From the NCBI RefSeq assembly GCF_000403645.1, contig NC_021313.1, positions 3,181,014 through 3,245,013 on the forward strand: a stretch of 64,000 bases of DNA. Reading direction: 5' to 3'. The translations under genes were made by a program, and so were the position numbers. The DNA comes from Salinarchaeum sp. Harcht-Bsk1. GTDB taxonomy: Archaea; Halobacteriota; Halobacteria; Halobacteriales; Salinarchaeaceae. Under the pieces are notes generated by a model, which searched no databases, was not told the DNA's origin, and saw only the letters and a program-made list of their open reading frames with translations. Positions 51 to 3,779 of this stretch are shown piece by piece; the first letter of the stretch is position 1; each line of letters starts with the position of its first letter.

Positions 51-1289
51 TCAGATCACCCCGACTTCGTCCGCTGCGACCGCGAACGCGTCGATGCAGG
101 TTTCCAGTTCGGCGGCGGAGTGCGTCGCCATCGGCGCGACGCGGATCCGACTCGTCCCCTCCGGAACGGTCGGGGGGCGGATCGCGGGTGCGATGACGTC
201 GCGGTCGCGGAGCGCCGCGGCGAGTGCGAGTGCGTCCTCGCGATCACCGACGTGGACCGGAAGAATCTGCGTCTCGCCGCCCACGTCGAGGCCGACGTCC
301 TCGAGGCCGTCGCGTAGCTTGTCGACGTTTCGCCAGAGGCGGGCGCGCCGATCGGTCGTCCTGGCGAGGTGGAGCGCTTCGCCCGCCGCTGCCGCAGCCG
401 GCGGTGCTAGCCCAGTCGAGTAGACGAAGGACCTCGCCTCGTTGACGAGGAACTCGATCAAGTCACTGGACCCGGCGACGTACCCACCCTGACTCCCGAG
501 GGCCTTTGAGAGCGTACCGAGTTGAATCTGGACGCGATCCTCGAGCCCCGCCCGCTGGACGATCCCGCCACCGTCGACGAAGCAGCCGGTCGCGTGCGCC
601 TCGTCGGCGAGCAACCACGCTCCGAACTCCTCGGCCAGGTCTGCGAGGGCTTCGAACGGTGCGATGGTTCCGTCCATGCTGAAGACGGAGTCGGTCACGA
701 CGAGCCAGGACTCGTCGGCACCGCCGTTGGGAACTGCCACGTCGCCGGCAGCGACCGGCTCGGCCCGGCGTTCGCTCATCCGCTCACGGAGGTCGGACGG
801 GTCGCAGTGATCGTAGACGACCACGTCGGCGTCGGCCAGCCGACAGCCGTCCACGATGCTCGCGTGATTCAGTTCGTCGGAGAAGACGACGTCCGGATCG
901 AGTGCCGCGATCGTCCCGACGTTTGCAGCATAGCCCGAGGAGAAGGCGAGCGCCCGCTCGGTGCCCTTCGCATCCGCGATGCGGGACTCGAGGTCGCGGT
1001 GAACCAGGGTGTCCCCAGTGACGAGACGGCTCGCACCGGCGCCGGTGCCGACGACGTCCGCAGCGTTCTGAGCGGCTTCGACGACGCGTTCGTCGCCGGC
1101 GAGTCCGAGGTAGTTGTTCGCCGCGAAGACGAGCTGGTGGTCCGGCTCGATGACCGGCAGGTCCGCACCCGGATCGGGTGCGAAACGAGCACTGTGCCCC
1201 ACGGCGTCTGCAGGCTGGAGGTCACGGTAGAGCGTGCGAGATCGTCGCTCCCGGAGACGGTCGTCGAGATCGAACCCTCGCTCACACAT
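51..1289 (-). CDS. bioF: 8-amino-7-oxononanoate synthase (BioF)
   Basis: A PLP-dependent alpha-oxoamine synthase of 412 residues. It condenses pimeloyl thioester with alanine to give 8-amino-7-oxononanoate (KAPA) in biotin synthesis. Family marks are NNYLGLAGD near the N-terminus, the TGAGASRLVTGDT glycine-rich stretch, DEAHATG with the PLP-pyridine aspartate, and GTLSKALGSQGG with the Schiff-base lysine. 2-Amino-3-ketobutyrate CoA ligase (Kbl) looks similar; the neighbouring bioU and bioB favour BioF. The start at 1289 fits a TATA-like box 25-30 bases upstream, so the gene probably has its own leaderless promoter although it lies 97 bases behind bioU on the same strand. Confidence 0.88.
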   Translation of the reverse strand: MCERGFDLDDRLRERRSRTLYRDLQPADAVGHSARFAPDPGADLPVIEPDHQLVFAANNYLGLAGDERVVEAAQNAADVVGTGAGASRLVTGDTLVHRDLESRIADAKGTERALAFSSGYAANVGTIAALDPDVVFSDELNHASIVDGCRLADADVVVYDHCDPSDLRERMSERRAEPVAAGDVAVPNGGADESWLVVTDSVFSMDGTIAPFEALADLAEEFGAWLLADEAHATGCFVDGGGIVQRAGLEDRVQIQLGTLSKALGSQGGYVAGSSDLIEFLVNEARSFVYSTGLAPPAAAAAGEALHLARTTDRRARLWRNVDKLRDGLEDVGLDVGGETQILPVHVGDREDALALAAALRDRDVIAPAIRPPTVPEGTSRIRVAPMATHSAAELETCIDAFAVAADEVGVI

Positions 1290-1386: not shown

Positions 1387-2481
1387 TCAGAAGCCGGGCA
1401 TCAGCTCTGCAGGTCCGTAGACGCCGTAATCGCCGGCGCGGTTGCGCTCGACTGCGCGCTGGAGGTAGCCCAGCGCCGGCCCGTTGACGTTCGCAGCCAT
1501 CGAGGTGTCGTCGTCGAGTTCGAAGGTGTTCGTCCCGGTCTCGCCGTCGAACGTCGTGCCGGTCACCTCGACCGTCGTGGTCGTGGGCTTCTCGTCGTTC
1601 CGGAGGTCGAGAACGCCGCCGACGCTGACGTCCTCGGCGTCACAGATCCCTGCACGCTCTAAAAGCACGTCGTCGGCGTGCTCCATGTCGTGGAATTCGA
1701 GGACGCCGTTGTGGTCGTCGACGATCTCCTCGATTTCCTCCTCGGAGAGGTCTCGCGCCGTCTCCACGTCGTACCCGTCGAGGTGGGCGATGTCCTCGCG
1801 GACGGTGCCACGGTTGTCCTCGTAGCCGGACTTGAGACCGACGCCCCACCAGATGTCGACGCTCTCGACCTCGACGAAGGACTGTGCAGCGAGGGCTGCC
1901 GCGCCGGTCAGGAAGCCGGGCGTCGCACCGGCCCCACAGACGAACGTAATGCCGGAATCCTCGAAGCGATCCGCTCGGACGTCGAGCATGTCGATCACGC
2001 GAGAGCGTTTGAGCACGTCGATGAGGACGCCCTCGTAGTTCGCGTCGGCGAAGCGATCCGCGATGCGCGGAATGAAGTCGTGTTCGAGGTTGGGGAGCGC
2101 GATGAGGACGGCGTCGAACGCGTCGGAGGCTGCGACGACGTCGTCGATCGGCGCGTCGGTCGGCTCGGCCTGCTTGGACGCAACGACGCCCGCGTCCTCG
2201 CCGTGCTGTTTGACGTCGGATGCGCTCGCAGCCGTTTCGTCGTCGTGCCGAACGCCTCCATCGGTCAGCGGCTCGCTATCCGTATCGCCGCGGCCGTCGC
2301 CCGCGATGTTCCCCTCGGTGGCGTCGAGCAACTCCTCGACGTCGAGGCCGTCGTGGTCGATCGCGACGCCGTGGCGATCGCACGCCGCGACGGCGTCGAG
2401 TCCATCCTTGTGCTGGCTCACTTCCAGGGTTCGTCGTCCGATACCGCCCGTGCCGAGTACCGCGAAGTCGATGGATTCCAT
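1387..2481 (-). CDS. bioU: BioU-type suicide 7,8-diaminopelargonate synthase
   Basis: A 364-residue NAD(P)-binding protein of the saccharopine-dehydrogenase-like group. The Rossmann motif LGTGGIGRRTLE is at 8-20. BioU, first described in cyanobacteria and reported to have haloarchaeal relatives, converts KAPA to diaminopelargonate using the amino group of its own lysine, so it replaces BioA. Here Lys158 in DVLKRSRV is the best candidate for that lysine; this is my inference from position and context. Other marks are CGAGATPGF and the C-terminal VYGPAELMPGF. Residues about 52-112 form an Asp/Glu/Gly-rich, probably disordered insertion. The gene follows bioB by 27 bases and no bioA is present. 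If not BioU, it would be a generic dehydrogenase. Confidence 0.75.
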   Translation of the reverse strand: MESIDFAVLGTGGIGRRTLEVSQHKDGLDAVAACDRHGVAIDHDGLDVEELLDATEGNIAGDGRGDTDSEPLTDGGVRHDDETAASASDVKQHGEDAGVVASKQAEPTDAPIDDVVAASDAFDAVLIALPNLEHDFIPRIADRFADANYEGVLIDVLKRSRVIDMLDVRADRFEDSGITFVCGAGATPGFLTGAAALAAQSFVEVESVDIWWGVGLKSGYEDNRGTVREDIAHLDGYDVETARDLSEEEIEEIVDDHNGVLEFHDMEHADDVLLERAGICDAEDVSVGGVLDLRNDEKPTTTTVEVTGTTFDGETGTNTFELDDDTSMAANVNGPALGYLQRAVERNRAGDYGVYGPAELMPGF

Positions 2482-2508: not shown

Positions 2509-3693
2509 TCAGTCGCTCGCGTTGGTCGCTTCACCGCGGTCGTTTCGAGGGTCCCCGGCCTTGCTCGTCGCCGTGCCGACGGCAGTGTCGGGCTCGAGTG
2601 CCTCGTCGTCGCCGTCGGTTTCGTCGCTGCGCTCGTCCGAACGCGCACGCGTACGAACTTCGTCCGGGTCGAACTCGTTCGCGTCCATGTTGGGCTCCAT
2701 CCCGGCTCGCTCGATCACGTCGAGATCGTCAGCGGCGTCGTTGCCGTGCGTCGTCAGGTAGTCGCCGGTGAGGATGCCGTCCGCTCCTGCCTCGAACGGG
2801 AGGTGTTGCTCGTCTACGTCCAGATTGACTTCGCGCCCGCCAGTGAGGCGGACCCGCGCGTCTGGGTGGAGGAACCGATAGACGGCGATGGTCTTGACGA
2901 TTTCCTCCGTCGAGATGTCGGCGGTGTCACCGAGTTTCTCGCCCAGCTCGGTGCCCGCGACTGGATTCAGTACGTTGACCGGGACCGACGAGACGCCGAC
3001 GTCATGGAGCGCGATCGCGGCGTCGACGCGATCGGTCGGCGACTCGCCCATGCCGAGGATGACGCCGGCACAGAGGTCCATGCCAGCCTCCTTGGCGATC
3101 TCGAGCGTCCGAACGCGATCCTCGAAGCTGTGGGTGTCCACGATCTCCGGGAAGAAGTTCGGGGACGTCTCGATGTTGTGATTGTAGTGATTGAGCCCCT
3201 CCTCGACGAGTATCTCGGCCTCCTCCTCGGTGAGGATGCCGAGCGAGCCGTCGACCTCGACGTCGGTCTCGTCGCGCACGAGGCGGATGGCCTCGAGGAC
3301 ACGATCCCACTCCTCGGGCCGTGCCTCCCTGTCGATGCCTTTCTCCGCGACGACGATACCGAACCGCTGTGCGCCGTCGCGCTCGGCGCGTTTCGCTGCA
3401 GCGAGGATCTCCTCCGGGTCGAGGAGGCCGTAGGTGTCGATGCCCGTGTCGAAGTGGACCGACTGGGCGCAGAAGCCACAGTCCTCCGCGCAGTTGCCCG
3501 CTTTCGCGTTGACGATGGAGCAGGCGTCGACGGTGTCGTCGCCGAACTCCGAGCGGACGTAGTCCGCCGCCGGCGCGAGGTCCTCGACGGGCTGGGCGAT
3601 CAACGCGAGGCCGTCGCGCCGGGAGAGTTGCTCCCCGGCGAGCACGCGCTCGGTCGCCTCGTCGACCGTCGTGTTGCCGGTGCTGTAAACCAC
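2509..3693 (-). CDS. bioB: Biotin synthase (BioB), radical SAM
   Basis: Inserts sulfur into dethiobiotin, the last step of biotin synthesis. The radical-SAM cluster motif C-x3-C-x2-C is at Cys68, Cys72 and Cys75 (GNCAEDCGFCAQS). YNHNIETSPNFFP and RVRLTGGREV are typical BioB segments. A longer open frame extends upstream without an ATG; I chose GTG at 3693 (MVYSTGNTT) because haloarchaeal BioB proteins begin this way and a TATA box lies about 27 bases before it. The protein is 394 residues. The last 65 or so are an acidic, low-complexity tail not needed for catalysis and common in halophiles. First gene of a bioB-bioU unit, with a BirA-like operator across its start. Confidence 0.93.
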   Translation of the reverse strand: MVYSTGNTTVDEATERVLAGEQLSRRDGLALIAQPVEDLAPAADYVRSEFGDDTVDACSIVNAKAGNCAEDCGFCAQSVHFDTGIDTYGLLDPEEILAAAKRAERDGAQRFGIVVAEKGIDREARPEEWDRVLEAIRLVRDETDVEVDGSLGILTEEEAEILVEEGLNHYNHNIETSPNFFPEIVDTHSFEDRVRTLEIAKEAGMDLCAGVILGMGESPTDRVDAAIALHDVGVSSVPVNVLNPVAGTELGEKLGDTADISTEEIVKTIAVYRFLHPDARVRLTGGREVNLDVDEQHLPFEAGADGILTGDYLTTHGNDAADDLDVIERAGMEPNMDANEFDPDEVRTRARSDERSDETDGDDEALEPDTAVGTATSKAGDPRNDRGEATNASD

Positions 3694-3714
3694 GTTCTCG
3701 GTGTCGGTTGACGA
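3683..3714. promoter_or_regulatory. BirA-type biotin operator over the bioB start
   Basis: The plus strand reads CTGTAAACC, a 14-base spacer, then GGTTGACGA. The known BirA consensus is TTGTAAACC-N14/15-GGTTTACAA, so the arms match at 8 of 9 and 7 of 9 positions with the correct spacing. The site covers the GTG start codon and the predicted transcription start, just downstream of the TATA box at 3717-3725, where a bound repressor would block the promoter. The match was made by eye. A repressor-type biotin protein ligase is not in this window. Confidence 0.68.
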
Positions 3715-3716
3715 GT

Positions 3717-3725
3717 CCTTAATTG
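3717..3725 (-). promoter_or_regulatory. TATA-like box of bioB
   Basis: The minus strand reads CAATTAAGG, centred about 27 bases before the GTG start of bioB. This supports a leaderless transcript starting at or next to the GTG. Confidence 0.55.
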
Positions 3726-3779
3726 TGGGGGTCGGCTGAATGTTGGCGTTTCCGCATGTCGTTGTTGCGTCAACGAAAA

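Follow-up and report, generated by a model that had tools for sequence, protein, structure and literature searches.

The bioB locus and its promoter

We analysed a window of 64,000 nucleotides (the whole stretch of DNA under study) from Salinarchaeum sp. Harcht-Bsk1, in which the biotin synthase gene bioB is followed by further biotin genes, all on one strand. We infer that bioB, bioU, bioF and bioD are co-transcribed. The features of the locus are given below, with promoter positions counted from the first base of the bioB start codon.

51-1289, minus strand: bioF-like 8-amino-7-oxononanoate synthase gene, third gene of the predicted operon (TIGR00858, E=4e-117, 391 bits, below the cut-off of 426)
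1387-2481, minus strand: bioU-like gene, second gene of the predicted operon (best NCBIfam match NF047886 BioU, E=8e-96, residues 92-364)
2509-3693, minus strand: bioB, biotin synthase, 394 aa, first gene of the predicted operon (TIGR00433, 345 bits, cut-off 225)
3683-3691, minus strand: coding half-site GGTTTACAG, +3 to +11, the third base of the GTG plus codons 2-4
3691-3693, minus strand: GTG start codon of bioB, also its inferred transcription start (leaderless)
3692-3705, minus strand: 14-base spacer between the half-sites
3706-3714, minus strand: non-coding half-site TCGTCAACC, -21 to -13
3719-3724, minus strand: TATA box AATTAA, -31 to -26
3726-3731, minus strand: BRE-like element CCCCCA, -38 to -33
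L261:2300-3064, same strand as bioB, just outside the window: bioD-like reading frame after the bioF-like gene, assigned by eye on the basis of a P-loop

BioU is a replacement for BioA; the bioU-like gene scored 321 bits for NF047886, below that family's cut-off of 600. The gene that precedes bioB, likewise on the minus strand, encodes the archaeosine radical SAM protein RaSEA (TIGR01210, 3981-5090).

Read along the minus strand, the region runs AATTAAGGAC TCGTCAACC GACACCGAGAACGT GGTTTACAG, with the GTG at 3693-3691. Among 76 non-redundant bioB rows from relatives, a TTTAT-like box is conserved at -30 to -26 and, further upstream at -38 to -33, a BRE-like CC..AA. A pyrimidine-purine step falls at -1/+1, which fits a leaderless transcript beginning with the GTG. 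Together, the positions of these three elements put the transcription start at that codon. They also back the claim of the first-pass annotation that a regulatory site lies over a likely leaderless start, inside the TATA box.

GTG is the start codon in 126 of 145 haloarchaeal bioB genes, far more often than among leaderless genes generally. In Haloferax volcanii, where 72% of transcripts are leaderless, GUG begins 6-9% of the leaderless transcripts and is associated with weak expression (PMC4983044).

A BirA-type palindrome and the first codons of bioB

Just inside the TATA box, a 9-14-9 palindrome of the BirA type (3683-3714) spans the GTG of bioB. Its arms, CTGTAAACC (3683-3691) and GGTTGACGA (3706-3714), are separated by exactly 14 bases, as had been claimed, and the first of them covers codons 1-4, so that one arm does double as the first BioB codons. 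For comparison, we took the BirA consensus published for bacteria, TTGTAAACC-N14/15-GGTTTACAA, from PMC545781, where it is quoted from Rodionov 2002. The site differs from TTGTAAACC-N14-GGTTTACAA at 3 of 18 positions and is the sole match in the window at three or fewer mismatches, with 0.00 matches expected from 100 shuffles. The core GTNAACC-N14-GGTTNAC has one exact occurrence in the 3.26 Mb genome; when one mismatch was allowed, a search of the Salinarchaeum genome for more sites returned matches at control level only. The palindrome is correctly described, its fit to the consensus included, and it stands far above chance.

To place the site in its relatives, we aligned, without gaps and anchored at the start codon, 80 bioB loci from named haloarchaeal species together with further bioB starts taken from 242 genomes drawn evenly across the class. 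GTNAAC was found at exactly -19 to -14 in 139 of 145 distinct starts, and GTTNAC at +4 to +9 in all 145. Across 103 non-redundant rows, mean pairwise identity was 0.89 in the non-coding core and 0.29 in the spacer, which has decayed to background, equal to the 0.29 found further upstream at -45 to -39. The predicted operator is thus conserved in orthologous promoters, which the first-pass annotation had named as a test of its proposal.

Such conservation might in principle have arisen without an operator, if the coding arm were kept for the N-terminus of BioB and the non-coding arm were a general promoter element. Most BioB proteins do begin with MVYETGN, and the non-coding arm adjoins the TATA box. 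However, the valine at codon 2 is encoded by GTT in 145 of 145 bioB genes, although GTT accounts for only 5.2% of the remaining valine codons in the same genes; among second-codon valines of flanking genes, it is used in 3 of 11. Codon 3 is always NAC (TAC, GAC, CAC or AAC), with its first base being the variable base of the half-site, so that four amino acids (Tyr, Asp, His and Asn) share a single DNA pattern. At one locus (L183), BioB has an unrelated N-terminus, MVNELAEEIG, and yet the palindrome TCGTCAACC-N14-GGTTAACGA is kept. Because GTT is invariant and the amino acid at codon 3 varies while NAC is kept, coding conservation alone is insufficient for the coding arm, and a protein-only explanation was rejected on these grounds. 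As for a promoter element, the exact core is unique in the genome, a count that refers to the paired arms and not to a single arm. We regard this combined explanation as very improbable.

Judged from these alignments, codons 2-4 of bioB are kept for the predicted switch rather than for the protein: the DNA is conserved and the protein is not. The proposed overlap of regulatory and coding constraint is therefore supported, and since the half-site is codons 1-4, this stretch would be selected both as DNA and as protein. It is likely that, class-wide in archaea, an operator half-site has become fixed in the opening codons of a leaderless gene, with regulation setting codons 2-4 while the amino acid drifts, and possibly with the otherwise rare GTG being favoured.

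A biotin protein ligase with a winged helix, and a probable second target

Among the proteins of the genome is a 336-aa biotin protein ligase that matches HTH_11 (PF08279), BPL_LplA_LipB (PF03099) and BPL_C (PF02237), all above cut-off. With a winged helix at its N-terminus ahead of the ligase and C-terminal domains, it is a group II biotin protein ligase, and the HTH-bearing ligase that the first-pass annotation suggested looking for is thus present. Both outcomes that the annotation had named as refuting its proposal were checked, and neither occurred. The alignment with E. coli BirA (1BIA; query residues 9-177) covers most of the HTH, as does that with S. aureus BirA, which begins at residue 17. 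The genome holds one other PF03099 match, which is weak.

We propose that the site is the predicted operator through which a group II BirA represses the leaderless bioB-bioU-bioF-bioD operon, and we give this reading a probability of about 0.9. Once biotin is ample and its acceptor proteins carry it, BirA loaded with biotinyl-5'-AMP would dimerise, and each winged helix of the dimer would sit on one half-site, with the two half-sites on either side of the transcription start, a short way past the TATA box. BirA bound in this way would block the recruitment of RNA polymerase or the opening of the start site. Binding, effector and repression at bioB are here deduced from sequence; to our knowledge, and in the literature that we searched, no haloarchaeal BirA has been proven by experiment to be a repressor.

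Many haloarchaea carry the same palindrome in front of bioY, the gene for the biotin transporter. Once the bioB arrangement is excluded, 68 of 242 haloarchaeal genomes have sites with the BirA-type pattern, with few in a reversed control. Among 30 such loci that were fetched, a bioY reading frame was found at 18 by script and at a few more by eye (for example L095); several further matches have no biotin gene near and may be due to chance. The palindrome is thus located at promoters of biotin synthesis and transport genes, bioB here and bioY elsewhere. In the bioY promoters, the spacer contains a TATA-like sequence, and about 20 bases at most separate the site from the start codon. This arrangement bears on whether the palindrome, being an inverted repeat, could instead form an RNA hairpin in an mRNA leader. 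At bioB, the promoter sets the start at the GTG, which leaves the upstream arm untranscribed. Given this start and the TATA-like sequence in the bioY spacer, a hairpin was rejected as having next to no likelihood.

The bioY of Salinarchaeum (L123:1331-2001; G000:C1, around 2379448) has no visible BirA-type site, so only one target of the predicted operator system is visible in this genome. This bioY sits between dnaK-like and dnaJ-like frames, and most other haloarchaeal bioY genes examined carry the site.

We scored 25 bioY promoters. The main reason for picking their genomes was that no exact pattern match occurred in them, and two more were included for comparison; this selection makes for a demanding test of the site-bearing promoters. 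Twenty-three scored 16-18 of 18; in 1000 shuffles, the mean was about 13 and the highest score 16. The other two (G173 and G124) reached at best 14 of 18, the shuffle level. The 23 promoters with a site come from genomes with an HTH-bearing ligase, as read from alignment coverage among the matches listed, and the two without come from genomes whose ligase lacks it. In these two, the ligase alignment starts at residue 55 (G173) and residue 57 (G124); Pfam detected no HTH in the G173 ligase, and inspection by eye found no HTH-like sequence in the upstream reading frame of G124. Both genomes belong to one genus, and the loss is probably a single evolutionary event. This co-occurrence of an HTH-less ligase with a site-less bioY supports BirA as the predicted binder. 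A different winged-helix regulator of biotin genes might bind the arms, given that the ligase HTH also matches other HTH families, more weakly, so that domains of this kind are common. Against this, motif, 14-base spacing and targets fit the published BirA consensus (PMC545781), and the absence of the ligase HTH coincides with the absence of the bioY site. We therefore consider another regulator unlikely and retain BirA.

In ten genomes, no BirA-type ligase was detected; these had neither operator pattern, no bioY and no bioB (hypergeometric 1e-5, relatedness ignored), and the remaining PF03099 matches inspected in them were lipoate-ligase-like by eye. Since bioB and bioY are missing as well, regulator and targets are not separated in these genomes, which show that the regulon travels as a unit and nothing beyond that.

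Variation in the spacer offers a further view of the predicted binder. In Halalkalicoccus bioB (L015), Tyr is replaced by Asp and the spacer has 13 bases, with arm cores that match each other exactly (GTCAAC / GTTGAC). In one genus group (g34), a 13-base spacer occurs in both bioY promoters examined and in one bioB. A shared 13-base spacer at bioB and bioY of one group points to one trans-acting protein with a putatively altered geometry, and it suggests a shift in the geometry of the BirA dimer. The loci with 13 instead of 14 bases are L015, L144, L232 and L234, comprising Halalkalicoccus bioB and the bioY of two genomes in the matching genus group.

Two other placements of the pattern were observed. 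In genome G171, a gene resembling biotin carboxylase (acyl-CoA carboxylase alpha) has a palindrome (L097:1501-1530) ~85 bases ahead of it, with birA ~3 kb away; the palindrome could mark an additional BirA target, or be due to chance. In three genomes of another genus group (g24; L101, L102 and L103, each 1501-1530), a similar site is conserved just before a 300-aa reading frame.

Comparison with known BirA operators

No haloarchaeal BirA operator is described in the literature that we searched, although the 2002 consensus paper may list one. The title of that paper reportedly includes Archaea, and with the consensus already published for bacteria, the kind of site is known. Archaeal BirA sites have already been predicted; what is new is a half-operator that doubles as coding sequence and is conserved class-wide. 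The predicted sites provide a clean candidate biotin regulon for haloarchaea, open to test. They would also illustrate clearly how, in a leaderless gene, the demands of DNA binding can override those of the protein. Wherever leaderless transcripts are in the majority, genes with a coding half-site could be frequent.

The haloarchaeal site shares with bacterial and archaeal BirA operators, to the extent that these are represented by the quoted consensus, its arms, the 14-base spacing, biotin synthesis and bioY as targets, and an HTH-bearing ligase. The haloarchaeal sites differ from these operators in their preference for TCGT(C/A)AACC, in having an arm formed by codons 1-4 of bioB, a leaderless gene, and, in Halalkalicoccus, in a spacer of 13 bases. 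In the PDB, the best match to the Salinarchaeum ligase is the catalytic domain of 1WNL, a 235-aa entry for a ligase without an HTH. Bacillus subtilis BirA is, as in haloarchaea, a group II ligase with sites at biotin synthesis and other operons, and its binding requires biotin and ATP (PMC4016012). The B. subtilis sites lie within the 5' UTR (PMC4016012), whereas the predicted haloarchaeal site spans the start codon.
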